Notes under the pieces: generated by a model
What the model was told of the DNA's origin: nothing
The model's input: only the letters and a program-made list of their open reading frames with translations
The model's database searches: none
Program-made: the position numbers and the translations under genes
Shown: in pieces, positions 4,146 to 35,683 of the stretch
Layout: each line of letters opens with the position of its first letter
Position numbering within the stretch: position 1 is the first letter of the stretch
From: Oscillospiraceae bacterium
Lineage (GTDB): Bacteria; Bacillota_A; Clostridia; Oscillospirales; CAG-272
Reading direction: 5' to 3'
Length of the DNA stretch: 45,929 nucleotides
NCBI GenBank assembly: GCA_015064425.1
Contig: SVSF01000001.1
Span: 1-45,929, forward strand

Positions 4146-4183
4146 AAAATATAAAAACTCCCGCCCCGTAAAAGGACGAGAGT
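4146..4183 (-). terminator. T-box terminator
   Basis: On the minus strand, ACTCTCGTCC (4183-4174) pairs with GGGCGGGAGT (4166-4157) over ten pairs including G-U, seven-base loop, followed by TTTTATATTTT. It overlaps the antiterminator strand of the T-box and ends about 25 bases before the metQ start. Confidence 0.85.
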
Positions 4184-4420
4184 CAATAGACTTCGTGTTA
4201 CCACCTTTAATTCGTCTTATCCTCGCGGATGAGACCTCTGTCGGTATCTGACAATACCCTGCGCTGTAATGGGCGCCCCCATCATAGCCTAAGCTTACGC
4301 TGTCGGTATGCGGCTCCGAGACCATCTTCGAAGGGCTATTCTGTACTCCTTTTCAGCTGCCGGAGCTCTCTGTAACATATCTTCCAATCTACTCTTCTCT
4401 TCATTGCCTTTATATATCAA
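4146..4420 (-). promoter_or_regulatory. T-box riboswitch, methionine type, upstream of metQ
   Basis: Reading the minus strand, the leader has the AGAGAG AG-box and apical CTCC...GGAG stem of T-box stem I, a candidate ATG specifier at 4325-4323 in the context GAAG-ATG-G, and the T-box core AAAGGTGGTAACACG at 4208-4194 (variant of AGGGTGGNACCGCG). Its AAAGG can pair with CCTTT of the terminator 5' arm to form the antiterminator. The bulge reads UGGU, whose last U predicts a tRNA with A73, as in tRNA-Met. With uncharged tRNA-Met bound, the terminator at 4146-4183 would not form and the importer is expressed. Confidence 0.88.
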
Positions 4421-4480: not shown

Positions 4481-4513
4481 AAATAAAAGATCCGAGTCAA
4501 AAGACTCGGATCT
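4481..4513 (-). terminator. Terminator of the tRNA-Arg/tRNA-His unit
   Basis: Perfect 11-pair stem AGATCCGAGTC/GACTCGGATCT (4513-4503 with 4498-4488), four-base loop, followed on the minus strand by TTTTATTTT. It begins four bases after the CCA end of tRNA-His and lies just upstream of the metQ promoter. Confidence 0.92.
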
Positions 4514-4516
4514 CGA

Positions 4517-4594
4517 TGGGGTGGATGATGGGACTCAAACCCACGACCTCCAGGGCCACAACCTGGCGCGCTAATCAACTGCGCCACATCCACC
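4517..4594 (-). tRNA. tRNA-His (anticodon GTG), CCA encoded
   Basis: Cloverleaf on the minus strand: acceptor GTGGATG/CATCCAC, D stem GCGC/GCGC, anticodon stem CCAGG/CCTGG with loop TTGTGGC (anticodon GTG), T stem GTGGG/CCCAT. G-1 (4594) and C73 (4520), the His identity pair, and CCA (4519-4517) are all encoded. The D loop is AGTTGATTA (G18, A19) and the T loop TTTGAGT (T56), so the normally invariant G19-C56 elbow pair reads A19-U56 here. The 5' end abuts the CCA of tRNA-Arg with no spacer. Confidence 0.96.
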
Positions 4595-4671
4595 TGGCGT
4601 ACCTTGAGGGACTCGAACCCCCGACCTACTGCTTAGAAGGCAGTTGCTCTATCCAGCTGAGCTAAAGGTAC
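4595..4671 (-). tRNA. tRNA-Arg (anticodon TCT), CCA encoded
   Basis: Minus-strand cloverleaf: acceptor GTACCTT/AAGGTAC, D loop with G18 G19, anticodon stem ACTGC/GCAGT with loop CTTCTAA (anticodon TCT, reads AGA/AGG), T loop TTCGAGT, discriminator G (4598), CCA 4597-4595. AGA is a frequent arginine codon in the surrounding genes. First of the two-tRNA transcript. Confidence 0.97.
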
Positions 4672-4715: not shown

Positions 4716-4744
4716 ATTATAACATAGGGTCTTTCGTTTGTCAA
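4716..4744 (-). promoter_or_regulatory. Sigma-A promoter of the tRNA unit
   Basis: TTGACA (4744-4739), 17-base spacer, TATAAT (4721-4716), a perfect consensus as expected for tRNA genes. Between it and the tRNA the leader has an eight-pair inverted repeat TGACAAAA/TTTTGTCA (4707-4700 and 4689-4682). Confidence 0.93.
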
Positions 4745-22771: not shown

Positions 22772-25700
22772 CTATTTCTCCTTTTTTTCAACACCTATTT
22801 CGGCAAAATGGCTTCTGCCATCAAAGGGAAAGAAATTTTCGGAAGGCTTTTGGTCAAGGTACATTTTTTTATTACTTGCCTTTGACAAGCGGACGGCATA
22901 GATGCTCTTATCCTTGCTTATTTCAAAGCTGATCCCCTTTTCAAATTTTTTAGGGATAGAAGGATCCATAACAAACCCTCCCTTTTTCATTTGTAATCCC
23001 AGTATTCCGTTTATAAAGACTCTGTAAAACCAGCCTGCACTACCTGTGTAGTGGTTCCAACCGCACCGTCCTCTTTGATCATCACTGTTGAGTATATCCC
23101 CTGCGATCGAATAAGGATCGCCCAGATATTTTCCTTTAAGCTCATTGAGTGAATATCGGTAAAGAGGATCTATAGTCTCGAGCACGGTATATGCATCATC
23201 TCCGTTTCCCCGTAAAGCGAGGGCATATGCAAAGAAAAGTGCTCCGTGACAGTATTCTCCGCCGTTTTCTCTTATACCTGCAGGATAATTCCCGATATAT
23301 CCGGGGCATCTGGAAAGTCCGTCAAAAGGCGGGTCCAACAGAAGCATAAGCTTGTGATCTTCTTTATAGAGTTTTAAAAAAGCTTCCTTTATAGCTTTTT
23401 TTACCCTGTCTTCTTTAAGTGAAGCTATAGATGCAAAGGCTTGTGATATAAGATCTATTTTGCATTCGGAAGATTCTTCTGTCCCGAATGCTTTTCCGTC
23501 TCCGAAGAAACCGCGTATATAATATTTACCGCTATAGGCATGTCTTTCAAGAGCAAGCTTTAATTTTTCGCTTTCCCTCAAATATTTTTCACTTTTTTCT
23601 TTTTCGTTAATTGTATCGCAAAGTTTTGAAAAGCTTTTTAATGTCATGGATAAAAACATCCCGAGCCAAACGCTTTCTCCTCCTTCTCCGACTTCGTTCA
23701 TTCCGTCGTTCCAATCACCGCCTCCGAAGAGCGGCAGACCGTGCTCTCCGATCCTTTTTACGGGGATCTCAAGTCCTCTTACGCAATGCATAAATATGCT
23801 TTCTTTTTTATTGCCTTTCACCGCTCTCTCATATCTGTCTTTTTCTTTTTTGTCAAGAGGACGGCTTTCAAGATAGTTTATCTCTTTAAGGCATAGAGAC
23901 GTATCCCCCGTGGATTCCACGTATTCGCAAAGAGCGTATGCAAGCCACACTGTATCATCGGAGATCCTTGTGCGGACTCCCCACGATATTCCCCTGTCAT
24001 TGTGCCACCAGTGCATTACATCACCTTCGGTATATTGGTGCGCGGCGCATCTTATTATCTGGTATTTTGCAAAGCTTGGATCTATGGGAATAAGGCAGAC
24101 AGAATCCTGAAGTTGGTCTCTGAAGCCATATGCCCCTCCCGGCTGGAAAAATCCGCATCTTGCTCTTATTCTGTCACAGACAGCCTGATAGGGAACATAT
24201 CTGTTTATCAGAAGATCTGTTTTTACATCTCCGCTTTTTATTTTTATTGCGGATAAAAGTTTGGAATAGTAATCGGCGTATTCGCAGAAGCCCTTTTCCA
24301 TATCCGACGTGGATCGGTATTTATTTCTTATATATTTGTAGTCGGCGGAGTCAACTGATCTGCATACTCCAAGAACAAAACCGCATTTCACATTTCCGTC
24401 GGCACATACGGTGTGTGCAGTACCACCTATATTGTATTTGAACGCTTTCATCCGTATATTTTCGTTTAAAACGTTAGATGCAAATTCCTCTGTATTGCGT
24501 TTCTCAAGGCGTATCAGCCTTTGAGAAGGCGCTTCCGGAGAAAGAGCATATACCGTTTCATATTTTAAGGATATATCTGCAGACGAAATACCGCAGTTTT
24601 TTAACTCAAGACTTATAAGCTTGGCATATAAAAATGGGTCGCATCCCACAAAGACTTTGTATCTAATGTTGTTTATTCTTCCGTTGTATATTGCACAGCC
24701 TTTAGTGAAATATACTTTTTCGGAACAGGCGCAAAGATCGTATATTTTTCCTTCTGAATGAAGGAGGATACGCTCTCCCGAAACTTCGTGATAAGGATCA
24801 TTTCTCCATTGGCTTATACGTTTTTCTCTTGAATTTTCAAAGTAGCTGAATCCCAAAGAATTCTGAGTCAGCATCGTACCGAACTGCGGACCGCAGTAGA
24901 TATGAGACCACGGATACGTTCTGTTTTTCTTTTCGCAGACAAATCCGTTTGCGGTAAAATAGCCGCCTTCGGTTTTAAAAATTGCATTGTCTTCAGCCTT
25001 TTCCCCATCATCCGCTTCAGTTTTTGCATACACTTCTGCATGTATTCTTGCCGAAGGCGATCTCATTTTTTCCAGGACAAGTTTATCGATGTCCGTATCT
25101 GTTCCTATTTTAAAATATAAACGTGAAACAAACTCAAATAGCTTTGATTCGGAGTTAACTATAAAAAGCCCGCCGTCGCTCTCCGAACGTGTGTGTCCCA
25201 TTATATTGTGGCAAAGCTTGTTGATGAAGGACGAGACCGCATTTGTATAGCTGTCGGGTTCTTTAACGATAAATACCAGATCAAAGATCTCTCCCTTTAT
25301 TTTAAGATATTTATATGCTTTGATAAAACTCTCGCATATACGGATCTCTCGGTCTGAAAGCTCGGATCCCGTTCCGATGGATACGGATATTATGGGAAGA
25401 TCTCCGGATATCCCGTGTATATAAAGCGGATTTTTTCCGTACACCTTGTCTGCTTCCTTAGGTTCTCCGATATCATGATATAGTGCGGTCAGTACGGTGT
25501 TGGATAACTTTAAAGAGTCCTTATCAAGCAAAGAGGCAAACATTTGATATTTGACGGTTCTGTACAGAGCCTTTCTGAAGGCTTCGCAAGGAGATTGATT
25601 TTTCAATGATCTGGCCTTTTTGATATTCTCGGTTACCTCTTCCTTGCTTTTTCCGCAGGAGATAAGAAATTCCGTTCTGTATTTTCCGCTTGATGAATCT

Positions 25701-28700
25701 GAGGCTCTTTTAATGGCGCATATGGGGTCTATACACGGACCTGTTTCGTTGTCAAAGGTTGCTTTTAACAGCGCGGAAAGATCGTCTTCTGTGTACATAA
25801 GGGGAAGATATCCGCCTTTTCTGCTGATGAATTCGATCTCAAGATTTTTATTGACAAAGCCGGCTCCGCAGTAAACGGGATCCTTTCCTCTTCTTTTGAA
25901 TATCAGCAGTTTTTCTTCTTTGTCGAAGTAAGCTTCAACGAAAAGCCGTTGGTATGCGGGATGAGAAAGGTAGTCCTTGTGGGTGCATAGCTTAGGCTCA
26001 AAGCAAAGCATAGGGCAGATACTGCAGAACTCTCCCGATACCGCGAAGCTTATGGCAATACAGTTGTTGTCTGGATCTATCGCAAATACCGACTCAGAAC
26101 GTATATTGTTATTTATAAGCTTATATCTGACGGACATATTGTCACACTTCATCAAATAGTTACTTCCCGTAGCACCGTACACCTTACCGTCTGCCTCAAA
26201 ATATATTTTTAATCCTCCAAAAGAAAAAATATCCTCAAAATCTCTGTGGCAAATATCGTATTTCCCCATTTTTATCAGGATATCTCCCTTGGAAGAGCAT
26301 ACAAGTGAAAGGTCTCCGTTGGATAAAAGTGCCGTGCCCGGTGCTTTGAATACCGCACCCTCATTTATTGATGCATGTTCCTTTGTTATTTCTTCTTTAA
26401 CAAGGAGGCTTTCTTTTAAGAGCAGTTCTGTCGTAACTTTAGGCATTGCCAAAGGAAGATGTCTTTTAAATACGGGAGCATCTGCGGGGATCTTTTCTGT
26501 AAGGAGCTCCTTTGCCGAAGCCATATGTCTGTTTGACATAAATCTTTTTGTGAATATTCCGTCAAAGCAGGCGTTTGCACAGGCAATTATACTCATTCCG
26601 ACATGATGAGCCATAAATGATCGGATGATGGCGTACTCATCCTTTACTCTTGACGGGCTGAAGTCAACAGCTTCATAAAATCCGTATTTACCGTACATTC
26701 CCATATCCTTCAACTTCGTTAAGTTTTCGGGTGCGATATTTTTTGATACCGCAAAAAACAAAAAGGATGAGTAGGGAGAATACACTTTCTCTTTCGAAAG
26801 TCCGTTTGAAAGTCCCAAAGACTGTACTCCGTGTGCTTTATACTGATAGTTTAACTCTTTATCAAAGGCATAATAACCGCTTTCGGATTTTCCGAATATA
26901 CCACGTTTTTTATTTTTATATTGCTCATAGAAAGCAAAACGCAGGGCTTCGTAATGAAGGGAATTTTTGTATACCGGCAAAAGAAGGGTCGGCATAAAAT
27001 ATTCAAACGCTGTTCCGCTCCAGCTTGCAAGTCCAAGAAAACCGTCGTCGGATATAAGAGTTCTCTGTAACTTTGCCCAATGCCTGGCAGGCACCTGTCC
27101 CATAGCAATTGCATAATAGCTTCCGATCCTTGATTCACTCATAAGAATATCATAGCAATTTTCGCTTAAACGTCCGTCGGTAACGTCACAACTTATACAA
27201 AAAAGATCTCTTTTGGTGTTATACAATGCTTTGAAATCGGTATCGGCGAGTATATTCCCTATAGTGTTTATCAGCTCCGAGATGCCGTTTTCTTCACCAA
27301 GGTATCCGTACAGACCTTCTTTAAGAGCTACAAGGCAGGCGCAAAGATTTCCGCTGTCTACCGTAGATACGTAGGGCCTGCCTATGGGCTCAAGCGTAAC
27401 CGTATCATACCAGTTGTACAGATGCCCGTGATATTTTGGGAGGAGACTTACGCTTTTCAATATTCCCGATATTCGGATACAGAGCTCATGACTGTCAATA
27501 AAAGAGAAGTCTCTTGCGGCAAGTGTTGAAAGAAGACACAGACCGATATTTGTGGGAGAGGTTCTGTGAGCGATCGCTGTGACGGGTCCGAACTGTACGT
27601 TATCGGGAGGCAGAAAATTATCTTCTTCTCCTGCATGGTTTTTGTAAAATTTCCACATATCAAAGGCATATTTTGTAAGCATCGCCCGTTTCGATTTTGA
27701 AAATGCGGGTGAATGAGGTTTCTTTTTTGATATTAAAAGACTCCAGAATGGGAAGATAAGCCACATAAGTCCCAAAAGCTTTACGCTGATATATGGGTAG
27801 AACAATATAATAAGAGCGCCCCCTATAATGCTGTCTGCAAAAGCTATAGTATACCTTCCAATACCTGTTCCCAGCTTATCTGCCTCCGATGCGGTAGTCC
27901 ATTCCAGCAGATTTCTTCTTGTAAAAGCCATTCTGATGAATGCTCTTAAACTTGAGTCTACAGAGACTTTGGCGGTATGGAAAAGAGAGCAAACGTTAAA
28001 CAAAGCCATAGTAAAATTACGTTTTACCGAAGGAACAATACGGCTGAAAAACTTTCTGTCGGCATATCGTATGGAAAATACTACGGATGTGAGTGCAGGG
28101 AATATAAGATGAAGCAGCGAAAATGCAATAGCAAGACTTAAAATTCTTTCGCTTCTTATTCCCGCAACAAGTATCGCTGCAACTGTTGCCGGAGGGGTCA
28201 GGATACGTCTTAAATTATCAGCGAGCTTGTATTTTGATAAAGCGGTTATAGGATTGTCATAAAGCTTGTTTTCGGAATTTTTTACTTTTGGTCCGGCATA
28301 AGCAAGGGCTTGAATATCTCCTCTGTTCCATCTGTGCAGTCTTTTGAAATAAGGAAGGACTCCTGAAGGGCAAGTATCGGAAAGACTTATATCCGACAGA
28401 TAAGCTGTTCTGAGTCTTGTACCCTCAAGCAGATCATGACTCAAAACACTTTCTTCGGAGAAGGCTTTATCCAGAAGTTTATAATAGCAATTTACGTCAA
28501 AAATACCTTTCCCGCAGAAATTTCCTTCACCGAATATATTTTGGTATACATCAAAAGAAGCGGACGAATATACGTCTGTACCTCCTCCTCCGCAAAGCAT
28601 CATAGAAAAATCCGAAGCGGTTTCTGACAGAAGAGAGGTACTTATATTGGGCTGCATTATTCCGTAGCCCGATACGACTCTTCCTCCTTTTATAACAGGC

Positions 28701-29974
28701 TTGTTCAGCGGGTGGAGCATAGACCCTACCAATGCCTTTACCTTCCCGAGACCCAATTCCGTATCGGAGTCGAGGGTTATTATATATTTAGTTTCTTTTA
28801 AGAAGCAATCGTCACAGAGACAAAGAGAGAATGAGGTATCCTTTGACTTGATCTTTCTTACAAGCTCTAGCAGCGCCCCTCTTTTTCTTTCCCAGCCGAT
28901 ATACTTTTTTTCTCCGGTAGAATAGCTCCGTCTGCGTATAAAAAGAAAAAAGTTATTTCCGTATTTTCTGTTGAGATCATCCGCATGCTCCTTCGCTGCA
29001 GATATTATCTCTTCATCTTTCGGGCTTATATTTTCGGCAGAGTCCGGAAGATCTCCAAGCACTCCGAAGCGTACGTTTTTATCCTTATTTGCAAGATAGT
29101 AAAGTTCGAGCTTTTCAAAAAGTCCGTTTAACTCTTCGGAATCACACAAGAGGCTCGTTATTACAGCAAGAGTTTTGGCTGAATCGGGAATGCTTTCCAC
29201 CTCGTATTTCGGAACGGTGAGCTCTTTATATGAAAGTTTTGAAAATATCAGATTACTTATTTGCAATGCAAGTTCATAGCTTGGTAAGATCAGGAGTAAT
29301 GGGAGGAGCAGGTCGCCTTTTGCCATAAGAAGCTCGGCACTCATAAGGAGCAAAGTTAAAAGGATAACGGAAGAAAAATATATTTTTTTAAATATTTCCG
29401 GAATTTTTCCGAATGCGGTTCCGAGTCCTATTTCGGCATAGGCTTCTCTGTCGGATATTTTCTTTCTTTCCGCATATTCCTCAATGGCGTTACGGTAAGC
29501 GCTTTTGGTTGCTTCGTTACTGTTTTTGTATATTTCATTTTCGGATAAAAGCTTTTCGGTATACGATACGTCTTCAAAAAAGCTTTTAAGGTCGCTTTTT
29601 GACAGTACGGAAAGCGTATAAGCACAGTTGGATATCTGTGTATCGGAAAGCTTCGGTATCTCTCTCAAAATAATAAGAGCTATACTGCAATTGATGCAGT
29701 ATAGCTCACGGTTGTCAAAAGGTCTTTCTGTCTGCGCATCAAGGACAGCGTTTTTTATTACACCGAGGTCAAGCTTATATTCGTGCTTCTCAAGCAGTTT
29801 TTTCATAAGCTCGTAGATTACGGGGGAGACCTCATCGCTTTTACGATTGGCATAAAGTGCGTTTGCGGTATTTTCAAAGATATAGAAATCATCGTTTTCG
29901 CACAGCAATTTTTCCATAAGCTTTATTCTCGGGCGATCCTTGATAGTTGAAAAATTGTATTTTTTATTAGTCAT
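22772..29974 (-). CDS. Cyclic beta-1,2-glucan synthase-like protein (GT84, glycoamylase and GH94 domains)
   Basis: 2400 residues; GGAG lies eight bases ahead of the ATG. An N-terminal helical part is followed by a membrane pair (about 195-250), then a GT84 glycosyltransferase: DSD (402-404), GKGIFDV, SHDLLEG (His513-Asp514) and HRWNRGD (547-553). Further membrane pairs lie near 595-650 and 700-745. A glycoamylase-like domain (about 980-1165, ASWSGTAFEY) follows, then two GH94-type beta-sandwich parts (about 1200-1500 and 1665-1830) and a GH94 barrel with GGGDWNDGMN (Asp2087, Asp2090). In Brucella and Agrobacterium such proteins make cyclic beta-1,2-glucan: GT84 extends the chain, the middle part cyclises and GH94 trims length. 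Product here is inferred. This one is shorter than the ~2870-residue proteobacterial form. Confidence 0.85.
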   Translation of the reverse strand: MTNKKYNFSTIKDRPRIKLMEKLLCENDDFYIFENTANALYANRKSDEVSPVIYELMKKLLEKHEYKLDLGVIKNAVLDAQTERPFDNRELYCINCSIALIILREIPKLSDTQISNCAYTLSVLSKSDLKSFFEDVSYTEKLLSENEIYKNSNEATKSAYRNAIEEYAERKKISDREAYAEIGLGTAFGKIPEIFKKIYFSSVILLTLLLMSAELLMAKGDLLLPLLLILPSYELALQISNLIFSKLSYKELTVPKYEVESIPDSAKTLAVITSLLCDSEELNGLFEKLELYYLANKDKNVRFGVLGDLPDSAENISPKDEEIISAAKEHADDLNRKYGNNFFLFIRRRSYSTGEKKYIGWERKRGALLELVRKIKSKDTSFSLCLCDDCFLKETKYIITLDSDTELGLGKVKALVGSMLHPLNKPVIKGGRVVSGYGIMQPNISTSLLSETASDFSMMLCGGGGTDVYSSASFDVYQNIFGEGNFCGKGIFDVNCYYKLLDKAFSEESVLSHDLLEGTRLRTAYLSDISLSDTCPSGVLPYFKRLHRWNRGDIQALAYAGPKVKNSENKLYDNPITALSKYKLADNLRRILTPPATVAAILVAGIRSERILSLAIAFSLLHLIFPALTSVVFSIRYADRKFFSRIVPSVKRNFTMALFNVCSLFHTAKVSVDSSLRAFIRMAFTRRNLLEWTTASEADKLGTGIGRYTIAFADSIIGGALIILFYPYISVKLLGLMWLIFPFWSLLISKKKPHSPAFSKSKRAMLTKYAFDMWKFYKNHAGEEDNFLPPDNVQFGPVTAIAHRTSPTNIGLCLLSTLAARDFSFIDSHELCIRISGILKSVSLLPKYHGHLYNWYDTVTLEPIGRPYVSTVDSGNLCACLVALKEGLYGYLGEENGISELINTIGNILADTDFKALYNTKRDLFCISCDVTDGRLSENCYDILMSESRIGSYYAIAMGQVPARHWAKLQRTLISDDGFLGLASWSGTAFEYFMPTLLLPVYKNSLHYEALRFAFYEQYKNKKRGIFGKSESGYYAFDKELNYQYKAHGVQSLGLSNGLSKEKVYSPYSSFLFFAVSKNIAPENLTKLKDMGMYGKYGFYEAVDFSPSRVKDEYAIIRSFMAHHVGMSIIACANACFDGIFTKRFMSNRHMASAKELLTEKIPADAPVFKRHLPLAMPKVTTELLLKESLLVKEEITKEHASINEGAVFKAPGTALLSNGDLSLVCSSKGDILIKMGKYDICHRDFEDIFSFGGLKIYFEADGKVYGATGSNYLMKCDNMSVRYKLINNNIRSESVFAIDPDNNCIAISFAVSGEFCSICPMLCFEPKLCTHKDYLSHPAYQRLFVEAYFDKEEKLLIFKRRGKDPVYCGAGFVNKNLEIEFISRKGGYLPLMYTEDDLSALLKATFDNETGPCIDPICAIKRASDSSSGKYRTEFLISCGKSKEEVTENIKKARSLKNQSPCEAFRKALYRTVKYQMFASLLDKDSLKLSNTVLTALYHDIGEPKEADKVYGKNPLYIHGISGDLPIISVSIGTGSELSDREIRICESFIKAYKYLKIKGEIFDLVFIVKEPDSYTNAVSSFINKLCHNIMGHTRSESDGGLFIVNSESKLFEFVSRLYFKIGTDTDIDKLVLEKMRSPSARIHAEVYAKTEADDGEKAEDNAIFKTEGGYFTANGFVCEKKNRTYPWSHIYCGPQFGTMLTQNSLGFSYFENSREKRISQWRNDPYHEVSGERILLHSEGKIYDLCACSEKVYFTKGCAIYNGRINNIRYKVFVGCDPFLYAKLISLELKNCGISSADISLKYETVYALSPEAPSQRLIRLEKRNTEEFASNVLNENIRMKAFKYNIGGTAHTVCADGNVKCGFVLGVCRSVDSADYKYIRNKYRSTSDMEKGFCEYADYYSKLLSAIKIKSGDVKTDLLINRYVPYQAVCDRIRARCGFFQPGGAYGFRDQLQDSVCLIPIDPSFAKYQIIRCAAHQYTEGDVMHWWHNDRGISWGVRTRISDDTVWLAYALCEYVESTGDTSLCLKEINYLESRPLDKKEKDRYERAVKGNKKESIFMHCVRGLEIPVKRIGEHGLPLFGGGDWNDGMNEVGEGGESVWLGMFLSMTLKSFSKLCDTINEKEKSEKYLRESEKLKLALERHAYSGKYYIRGFFGDGKAFGTEESSECKIDLISQAFASIASLKEDRVKKAIKEAFLKLYKEDHKLMLLLDPPFDGLSRCPGYIGNYPAGIRENGGEYCHGALFFAYALALRGNGDDAYTVLETIDPLYRYSLNELKGKYLGDPYSIAGDILNSDDQRGRCGWNHYTGSAGWFYRVFINGILGLQMKKGGFVMDPSIPKKFEKGISFEISKDKSIYAVRLSKASNKKMYLDQKPSENFFPFDGRSHFAEIGVEKKEK

Positions 29975-32406: not shown

Positions 32407-32481
32407 ATATATCCATTTTTGAAAAAGAGGTCTAAAAAATATTAATTTGAAAGAAAAAGTATTTATTTTAATGACTGTATG

Positions 32482-32490
32482 TGATATAAT
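32482..32490 (+). promoter_or_regulatory. Possible extended -10 promoter of the subtilase gene
   Basis: TGATATAAT has the TGn extension and a perfect TATAAT. The -35 region (TTTATT, 17 bases upstream) is weak. It lies about 95 bases ahead of the chosen ATG. Confidence 0.5.
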
Positions 32491-32584
32491 AAAATGGAAT
32501 ACACTCAGAAATAAACAACAGAAAAAGCAACAAGCTTTTTGCGATCTTTTCTGCGTGAAAAACTATGAAAGGTGCAGTGGAAAA

Positions 32585-35500
32585 ATGAAGAAAACACTAT
32601 CGGCAAAATTGCTGTTGTTGTTTCTTACAACATGTATGCTGAATTTACATATCTCCTCCCTTGCCTTTGCATATGACACGGAAGAAACGACTTATAATGA
32701 ATGCGAAGTCATAATAGAATTTGATGAGGATGCAGATACCGAATCGGTAAAAAAACATATATTTGAAGTACTTAACGGAAAATTTGAGATAGTTGCCGAG
32801 TATGATACTCTCATAAAAGGAATTGCGGCAAAGATCCCGACATATAAGCTTTTGGCCGTAGAATGCATAAACGGAGTAAAATGTGTTTCAGATTCTTTGG
32901 AATATGAAGCTCTTGACACAAGTTCGGAAAATAATATAAAAAAGCAGCTGAACGATCTGTCCCCGGATCTTGAATATGAGGGCGCAGGTATGCTTGCGGC
33001 AGTACTTGATTCCGGATTTTTAACAGATGATCCGTACTTTACTTTAAGTGAAGGAACGGAACTTGCAAAAAGCAAAGAGGATATCGAGGTCATTAAAGCT
33101 TATTACAAAATTTCCGGCGTCTACGTTTCCGATAAGATACCATATGCTTATGATTACGGTGAGAATGACACGGACGTAAGTTCTGCTTCTTTGCACGGAC
33201 AACACGTGGCGGGAATAATCGGCGGCAATCCGAAAAATGCAAAAGATGAAAGCAAGTTCAGCGGTGTTGCGCCTGAGGTCCAGCTTGCGTTGATGAAGAT
33301 CTTCTCGGACGAAACGGGCACTACAAAGACCTCGGCAATACTTTCCGCCCTTGAAGATGCGATCCTTTTGGGCGCAGATGTAATAAATCTCAGTTTCGGT
33401 TCTCCTTGCGGTAACGAAGAGGGAAGGCCTATGCCTGCCTCTTTGAAAACAGCTATTGATAGAGCAGAAGAGCTTGGAGCTTTTATAGTGTGTGCTACCG
33501 GTAACGTGGGGAGCATAGGAAACGGAAGTGTATATGATAACGGATACGGAATAACATATCCTCTCGCAAACAACATTGATACAGGTACTGTGGCAACACC
33601 TGCTTCCATAAATTCCGCATTCTCCGTAGGAAGTCTTGATGAGACTTATAAAAAAAGGATCTACTTCTATATGGGCGGAGAAGATGGTATGAGGATCGGT
33701 TATACCGACACGAATATGTACTACGCTATAGGCAACAAAAGAAGCTTCGCCGCTCTTTTGGGCAACGAGCTTACGGCAGTATATGTCGGCGGAGACGGTA
33801 CGTATGAGGATTATAAGCATCTTAATGACCTTAACGGCAGACTGGTTATCGTAAGATACAGAGGCGAGATGTCCATTGAGAATAAAATGATCTTTGCCAA
33901 GGAAGCAGGTGCGGGAGGCGTTATCTTTTACGCTGACAAGAATGAAGACGCAAGAAGCCTTCAGCTGAACCTTGCCAACGCGGTAATTCCCGCCATACTT
34001 GTTTCATATAACGATTCTGTGGCTTTAAGAGACAACATAGGTACGGAGCTTCTTTTCTCCGATGAGTATTATCATTACGAGCTTGTTGAGGGTTCGCGTA
34101 AGCCGGCAGATTATTCTTCCGGCGGAATAAGCGGAGATATGAGTCTCAATCCAGATATTACGGCATCCGGTACGAATATACTTTCTCTCGGTGCCGAAGA
34201 GCTTATGAACAGAAGCGGAAGCTCTATGGCAGCAGCATACGTTTCGGGAGCTGCAATTCTTGTAAAAGAGTCACTCATAAAAAACAAGGCTGACAGTGAT
34301 GTCTCAAATCTGAAGAAAATAATGATGAACAGTGCATTTCTTCTTAAGGATGAAGTCAGCGGATATGAGTATTCTCCTAGAAAGCAGGGCGCGGGAATGG
34401 TTGATATACTTTCCGCCGTCAATTCAGATCTATTTATCAGCTCTGTTTACGGGAATGGAAAGATAGAGATCAAAAATCCGCTTTCTTATATATTCAGCTT
34501 TGATATAAAAATAGAGAATACGTCAAATGAGGTTAAGGATTGCTACTTGGCTCTTTCCGTTATGACGGACGAGCTTTTTGTTGCGGAGATACCGCAAAAA
34601 GACGGAAGCACAAAGTCCGTTTACTTCAATACGGAAAGAAATGTACCCTTGGAAAATTCAAAGGTCAAGATAAACGAAGAGGAAGCAAATGCAAACAAAT
34701 ATGCTCCCGACGGAGAGAGAGTAAAGGTAAGTATACAGCCAAATTCATCTCAGACCGTAAAAATAACCGTATATATGGATGCCAAGACCGTAAGTGAAAA
34801 AAGTAAGATATTTACCTCGGGATTTTTTGTTGAGGGATATATAGAGGCTTACGATGCAAACGGGGATGTACTTGCATCTGTACCATACGTCGGATTCAGA
34901 GGAAACCGAAACAATATGAGCGTTTTTGATCCTATGATCTACGACGGAGAAAGTTTCTTCGGAAAAAGCTATTTTTATTCATACGTTTATAACAGTATCG
35001 TAAAGCTGGGAAGTAATTCCGAAGTGACTGATCCTTATTATTCACGGGATTATATCTCATTCTCGCCAAACGGAGACGGAATAATGGATGCGCTCTACGT
35101 TTCAATAGGACTTCTCAGAAATGTGGAGAGCGTAAAAACGGAGATCATCGACAGCAAGGGCAACGTTATATATAAGTATAATAACGCAGGATATACCGTA
35201 AAGACACATCTTGATGCTAAAGTGCTTAACAATCTTTCTTTTATGGTGTGGGATGGTCTTAAAAATGACGGTACACCCTATCCCGACGGAAAATATACTC
35301 TCGTTATTACGGCGAAGAGCGACCGAAAAAACGTTGAACCGGAGAGACTGGAGTGTGTCTTTACGCTTGATACTGCGGCACCGGAAATGGTTGGAGCAAG
35401 ACTTGAGACGGATATGAAGGGGAAAGTATATCTGGTAATGGAGTTTAAGGATGAGCATCATCTCCAATCATTGGGCTATTTTAGCTTTATTGACGGGACA

Positions 35501-35683
35501 GGTCAAAGATACGAAGATTCTATACATGTGTCGGGAGACATAGTGCATGGAGAGACAACGGAATTTGCCGTGGATGTTACCTTTATAAATTCCGATGCAA
35601 TATATCTAACGGCAAGCGATTTCGCCTTCAACAGAACGACCTATAAATACGATATGCAATATATATATGACAATCTATCATGA
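32585..35683 (+). CDS. Secreted subtilisin-like (S8) protease with PA and FlgD-like Ig domains
   Basis: 1032 residues from the ATG at 32585, which starts a Sec signal peptide (MKK, hydrophobic core, AFA/YD cleavage). Triad: Asp142 (AAVLDSGF), His204 (LHGQHVAG) and Ser547 (SGSSMAAA), with oxyanion Asn307 (ATGNVG). A PA-like insert lies between Asn307 and Ser547 (AGAGGVIFYADKN). After Ser comes an Fn3-like part and near residue 815-925 a FlgD-type Ig repeat (SFSPNGDGIMDALY, PDGKYTLVITAKSD). The layout recalls streptococcal C5a peptidase and lactocepin. There is no LPXTG or S-layer tail; the last residues are YDNLS, so it is probably released or held by domains alone. Usual GTSMAxP is GSSMAAA here. 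Confidence 0.88.
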   Translation: MKKTLSAKLLLLFLTTCMLNLHISSLAFAYDTEETTYNECEVIIEFDEDADTESVKKHIFEVLNGKFEIVAEYDTLIKGIAAKIPTYKLLAVECINGVKCVSDSLEYEALDTSSENNIKKQLNDLSPDLEYEGAGMLAAVLDSGFLTDDPYFTLSEGTELAKSKEDIEVIKAYYKISGVYVSDKIPYAYDYGENDTDVSSASLHGQHVAGIIGGNPKNAKDESKFSGVAPEVQLALMKIFSDETGTTKTSAILSALEDAILLGADVINLSFGSPCGNEEGRPMPASLKTAIDRAEELGAFIVCATGNVGSIGNGSVYDNGYGITYPLANNIDTGTVATPASINSAFSVGSLDETYKKRIYFYMGGEDGMRIGYTDTNMYYAIGNKRSFAALLGNELTAVYVGGDGTYEDYKHLNDLNGRLVIVRYRGEMSIENKMIFAKEAGAGGVIFYADKNEDARSLQLNLANAVIPAILVSYNDSVALRDNIGTELLFSDEYYHYELVEGSRKPADYSSGGISGDMSLNPDITASGTNILSLGAEELMNRSGSSMAAAYVSGAAILVKESLIKNKADSDVSNLKKIMMNSAFLLKDEVSGYEYSPRKQGAGMVDILSAVNSDLFISSVYGNGKIEIKNPLSYIFSFDIKIENTSNEVKDCYLALSVMTDELFVAEIPQKDGSTKSVYFNTERNVPLENSKVKINEEEANANKYAPDGERVKVSIQPNSSQTVKITVYMDAKTVSEKSKIFTSGFFVEGYIEAYDANGDVLASVPYVGFRGNRNNMSVFDPMIYDGESFFGKSYFYSYVYNSIVKLGSNSEVTDPYYSRDYISFSPNGDGIMDALYVSIGLLRNVESVKTEIIDSKGNVIYKYNNAGYTVKTHLDAKVLNNLSFMVWDGLKNDGTPYPDGKYTLVITAKSDRKNVEPERLECVFTLDTAAPEMVGARLETDMKGKVYLVMEFKDEHHLQSLGYFSFIDGTGQRYEDSIHVSGDIVHGETTEFAVDVTFINSDAIYLTASDFAFNRTTYKYDMQYIYDNLS

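Follow-up and report, generated by a model that had tools for sequence, protein, structure and literature searches.

The elbow of a tRNA is closed by a near-universal pair between G19 of the D loop and C56 of the T loop, which is typical of tRNAs in general and does not define tRNA-His in particular. Canonical bacterial tRNA-His has this pair together with the cloverleaf, the GUG anticodon, G-1:C73, an encoded CCA, G18-U55, and U54-A58. The tRNA-His described here shares all of these except the first, having A19-U56 in place of G19-C56.

The contacts made at the elbow are described in several papers. The outer side of the 19-56 Watson-Crick pair forms a flat surface, where stacking is the main mode of docking for RNase P, the ribosomal E site, and T-boxes, whereas proteins more often hydrogen-bond there, including by reported base-reading contacts (PMC4810234). 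The pair G2112-A2169 of the L1 stalk stacks on the elbow pair (PMC5309774), and the interface between T-box and elbow is described as stacking without base pairs (PMC7583486). The thiolation of m5U54 in Thermus requires C56 (PMC7912444), which speaks against a recognition of the elbow by shape alone. The HisRS of T. thermophilus anchors G-1 and the anticodon regions only (PMC9976931).

The closest described systems are tRNAs with engineered elbows. The charging of human mt-tRNA-Ser(UGA) was restored by A19:U56, pair identity reportedly not being the basis of recognition (PMC10412605). Thermus pre-tRNA-Gly with A19/U56 is cleaved by PRORP3 at a near normal rate, the version with C56U alone performs much like the doubly changed one, and C56U gave about 22% in a PRORP assay of chloroplast pre-tRNA-Phe (PMC5039416). 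These tRNAs carry the same exchange and are functional in the reported assays, but they are laboratory-made, derive from other tRNAs, and were followed by charging or by protein-only RNase P cleavage. The alpha-proteobacterial tRNA-His that has no G-1 is likewise a lineage-specific departure of this tRNA; however, it concerns the acceptor end and goes with changes in HisRS (PMC9976931), whereas the gene described here has ordinary G-1 and C73 in place of the missing G-1 and the A73 of that type. Among open-licence PMC papers, we found no report of a natural bacterial A19-U56.

The tRNA-His gene and its surroundings

The window is the whole stretch of DNA that was analysed, 45,929 nucleotides of contig SVSF01000001.1. 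The features that concern the tRNA-His gene are the following, in the order of transcription:

4716..4744, minus strand: promoter-like site with a 12/12 consensus match, TTGACA-17 nt-TATAAT, with TG before the second hexamer (motif search)
4595..4671, minus strand: tRNA-Arg(UCU) with ordinary G19/C56, upstream of tRNA-His in the same unit (ARAGORN, as tct; Rfam)
4517..4594, minus strand: tRNA-His(GUG), from G-1 to CCA (ARAGORN, Rfam, direct base reading)
4575, minus strand: A19, where G is usual (direct base reading)
4537, minus strand: U56, where C is usual (direct base reading)
4487..4514, minus strand: terminator-like hairpin of 12 pairs (6 G-C) with a T-rich tail, directly after tRNA-His (motif search)

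ARAGORN places tRNA-His(gtg) at 4517-4593 on the minus strand, to which base-by-base reading adds G-1 at 4594, so that the range 4517-4594 of the preliminary description is exact. The molecule has the tRNA fold (RF00005, 63.0 bits against a cut-off of 29, Rfam), and direct reading locates the GUG anticodon at 4559-4557 and finds all stems intact. G-1 at 4594 stands opposite C73 at 4520, and both are encoded in the gene, as is the CCA. The D loop runs A14 G15 U U G18 A19 U U A21, with A14 at 4580, G15 at 4579, G18 at 4576, and A21 at 4572; the T loop runs U54 U55 U56 G57 A58 G U, the bases U54 to A58 occupying 4539-4535, and G18-U55 and U54-A58 are retained. Positions 19 and 56 hold bases capable of Watson-Crick pairing, A and U, but not G19-C56, and these would presumably pair within the folded, mature tRNA. 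The swap reported in the preliminary description is real, with A19 at 4575 and U56 at 4537. Its placing of position 19 in the region of 4576 was off by a single base, 4576 being G18 and A19 the base adjacent to it.

The neighbouring tRNA-Arg scores 70.3 bits in Rfam (cut-off 29), and base reading of its D loop, AGCUGGAUA, and its T loop, UUCGAGU, confirms the usual G19 and C56 ascribed to it earlier. Its CCA abuts the G-1 of tRNA-His (4594-4597, minus strand) and, since there is no spacer between the two tRNAs, one cut would yield both ends. Between 4100 and 5000 there are two promoter-like sites, where shuffles average 1.3 of any score, a count not above chance, and two terminator-like sites, where shuffles average 1.0, again regardless of score. 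Since shuffled sequences give similar counts, the argument from promoter and terminator rests on the position and perfection of the sites and not on their number.

Further downstream lies a T-box leader (4169-4413, minus strand, 96.9 bits, Rfam), which has an AUG (Met) specifier, read by eye, and its own 12/12 promoter match at 4454-4426 on the minus strand. It is followed by a gene for an NlpA-type lipoprotein and, further on, by a transporter permease gene. This is a methionine-transport T-box and, because of its Met specifier and the lipoprotein gene downstream, it is unrelated to tRNA-His.

As for the contig itself, the MutS2 of the window has no non-self match above 62% among the best 120 of 7,997, and in 240 sampled genomes from the order of G002 (G and L numbers are our handles for genomes and loci) its best matches reach 59% in G033 and 58% in both G020 and G001; judged from its sequence, the contig is Clostridia-like and an orphan. 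Elsewhere it encodes a 2400-aa ORF (22772-29974, minus strand) in which GH94 catalytic and supersandwich domains are accompanied by a glucoamylase-like stretch, and which in our view resembles cyclic glucan synthases, as well as a 1078-aa subtilase (32447-35683, plus strand) with a PA domain and weak CHU_C/FlgD-Ig-like matches at its C-terminus.

Coupling, rarity, and origins of the exchange

It had been proposed that positions 19 and 56 changed together by compensation and not by decay, in which case A19 and U56 would co-occur in related tRNA-His and relatives with one change alone would be missing. In all the tRNA-His rows read, the two bases indeed occur together. Using an open pattern that leaves both elbow sites free, and reading by eye, we counted two A19/U56 and six G19/C56 tRNAs in the family of G002 (12 genomes, 8 rows), and one and 72, respectively, in the family of G001 (196 genomes, 73 rows), where the pattern matched just 72 of the 196 genomes. 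The order of G002 (245 genomes, 186 matching) gave three A19/U56 and 147 G19/C56 among the 150 matches listed, and the class of G004 (148 genomes, 106 matching, 108 rows) gave four and 104. These four samples overlap, and their counts are not additive.

G19/U56 was found in none of 398 sampled genomes from the phylum of G001, a number that counts genomes and not the tRNA-His genes caught. A19 with any base at 56 appeared in two of the 398, namely G001 itself, with A19/U56, and G705, whose match was rejected as an A19 tRNA-His, the stretch containing no tRNA. Half-changed tRNA-His was absent from the rows read and from these 398 genomes, and no relative with one change alone appeared among the former. 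Within a 50-base core, the two elbow sites are all that separates the sister genomes G010 and G013 from G002; when the comparison is extended to the complete tRNA, differences in the acceptor stem and in one T-stem base are added. The coupling in tRNA-His and the absence of half-changed forms thus support compensation over decay, and from that absence we infer that selection usually removes single changes. These are not always harmful, however, and the need for compensation is unproven, because half-changed tRNAs occur in phages (see below) and PRORP3 tolerates C56U.

A strict pattern for tRNA-His with A19/U56, in which the D loop has to be 9 nt long, UUGUGG present, and the T stem preceded by UC, found seven loci in 84,980 species genomes, which must be taken as a lower bound because the pattern is so strict. 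All seven belong to assemblies other than that of the window: an uncultured Eubacteriales MAG (L121), Clostridia MAGs (L124, L126), and Victivallales MAGs (L122, L123, L125, L127). Each of the genomes G001-G007 has one open-pattern match, always A19/U56, with a pattern that misses some tRNA-His. In viral contigs the strict pattern found no locus, and its G19/C56 version found at least 120. With the same pair at seven loci of other assemblies and no tRNA-His with a single change, the double change exceeds chance, and A19-U56 tRNA-His is a real, rare, and recurrent variant of a known molecule.

The carriers fall into three groups: the window and G001; G002 and G003, whose family is a different one within the same order; and the Victivallales. 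The window and G001 may represent one shared origin or two, the single-origin test on the MutS2 tree giving a p-AU of 0.458. Both sit in a MutS2 clade of 16 rows, and among the matches listed, 12 of the 14 other rows have a G19/C56 tRNA-His, G020 and G053 being without a match. The anticodon stem of each carrier group resembles that of its own G19/C56 kin, which makes transfer of the tRNA gene between groups unlikely, as far as a comparison of these stems can tell. If inheritance is vertical, the swap would have had at least three origins.

We consider it highly probable that this is an ordinary, functional Clostridia tRNA-His gene in which G19-C56 became A19-U56 by a rare, near-neutral compensatory exchange. 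G19-C56 and A19-U56 can be regarded as isosteric Watson-Crick pairs and, both having the same shape, the lock between D loop and T loop and the flat face on which RNase P and the ribosome stack should be kept, which would explain why the swap is tolerated. It is a rare compensatory double substitution that has arisen several times among bacteria and is seen in tRNAs of phages as well, and it is perhaps easier in tRNA-His, since HisRS would hold this tRNA by G-1 and the anticodon regions and leave the elbow alone. All things considered, A-U should do as an elbow pair, and nothing in the swap speaks for a new contact or mechanism.

Other tRNAs and the readers of the elbow

It is conceivable, even if unlikely, that cells accept A19-U56 preferentially in tRNA-His, either because HisRS ignores the elbow or because a slightly weaker elbow suits the unusual RNase P cut that leaves G-1. 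Among the distinct tRNAs read in G001, G002, and G005 (32, 33, and 32, for 33, 43, and 43 places in Rfam, the gap being duplicates and unfetched places), tRNA-His alone departs from G19/C56. Loci L121-L306 hold 145 distinct tRNAs, with 139 G19/C56, three incompletely parsed, and three A19/U56, the latter being the tRNA-His of the three carrier groups. On 120 viral loci we collected 804 distinct tRNAs, of which 721 were kept after dropping 83 unparsed loops: 708 G19/C56, four A19/U56, three A19/C56, one G19/U56 (Arg, L065), two C19/C56, and three U19/C56. U56 is accompanied by A19 in four out of five cases there (Fisher p 1.6e-8 for 4, 3, 1, and 713 others, uncorrected for kinship). The four phage-contig tRNAs with A19-U56, found in the present analysis, represent the same natural paired exchange as the tRNA-His of the window, but they lie on viral contigs and belong to other isotypes, Gly (L018), Trp (L025), Ala (L029), and Pro (L077). 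Their four isotypes speak against a preference for tRNA-His, which keeps its small probability because the cellular scan covered tRNA-His alone.

Less probable still is that A-U has been selected for at the elbow, with RNase P RNA, the L1 stalk, modifying enzymes, and T-box stem I co-adapted. The restriction of the swap to few lineages and, in the three genomes examined, to tRNA-His would fit such a history, as would some differences in RNase P RNA. Of the 17 genomes searched for type A RNase P RNA, 15 gave a hit and two, G004 and G035, gave none; in the RNAs obtained we compared those conserved stretches that we take to be the putative elbow-docking module. In the alignment, the first stretch is identical in G001, G087, G064, and G033, and the second reads CCGGAG in G001 versus CCGAAG in the other three; however, CCGGAG is also present in the G19/C56 genomes G435, G453, and G479. 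G002 and G003 differ from their sisters G010, G013, and G015 at a single A/G position, which is variable among the latter too, and the putative docking region has no carrier-specific change in the three Clostridia carriers. The RNase P RNAs of the Victivallales carriers G005 and G006 (L332, L333) have GGCAAGAGC where G430, G435, G453, and G479, of the same class, have GGUAAGAGC, a difference from which nothing follows yet because the genomes compared are not close kin.

Regarding the T-boxes, Rfam finds seven in G001, nine in G002, and ten in G003, and no hits in G004-G007. None of these 26 has a His specifier by eye, and the doubtful ones precede genes of synthetases other than HisRS, identified with NCBIfam, for one per pair, as pheS, serS, valS, and tyrS. 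Six loci of the Clostridia carriers, surrounding hisS or weaker, below-cut-off hisS-like genes, gave no Rfam family at E 0.01. A His T-box coupling was rejected, with no T-box at the hisS and hisS-like loci examined and no His specifier in the carriers.

Elbow readers shared among tRNAs cannot have switched to A-U, because the other tRNAs that they read keep G19/C56. The earlier suggestion that elbow contacts may have adapted finds no backing here, since the published contacts are described as largely stacking (PMC4810234, PMC5309774, PMC7583486), an engineered tRNA with A19-U56 is charged (PMC10412605), and neither a carrier-specific change in the putative docking region of RNase P RNA in the Clostridia carriers nor a His T-box was found. 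Some adaptation at the elbow may have occurred, because base-reading protein contacts are reported in PMC4810234 and PMC7912444.

That the gene is decaying or unused, with a second tRNA-His elsewhere, is very improbable. The window is a part of the genome and further copies may lie outside it, but stems, G-1, C73, and CCA are intact, and in seven relatives the changed tRNA is the sole match of the open pattern (which misses some tRNA-His); with the gene intact and a promoter match and a terminator on either side of the tRNA pair, decay was rejected. Hardly credible, finally, is that the swap is an artefact of sequencing or assembly, or that editing of the RNA restores a base. Two matched changes that recur in seven other assemblies are no error pattern, even though the window comes from a single metagenome-type contig.

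Meaning for the tRNA elbow

The swap, probably a near-neutral compensatory exchange in an ordinary tRNA-His, provides a natural and repeated test of whether cells need a G-C pair at the elbow or any pair of the right shape. G19/C56 and A19/U56 tRNA-His coexist in one family of 12 genomes, that of G002, and Clostridia and Victivallales can serve as replicate lineages for comparing the two elbow pairs. If a preference for tRNA-His were true, the elbow pair would not be invariant but could be tuned according to isotype. The occurrence of A19-U56 itself argues against naming the elbow pair invariant.
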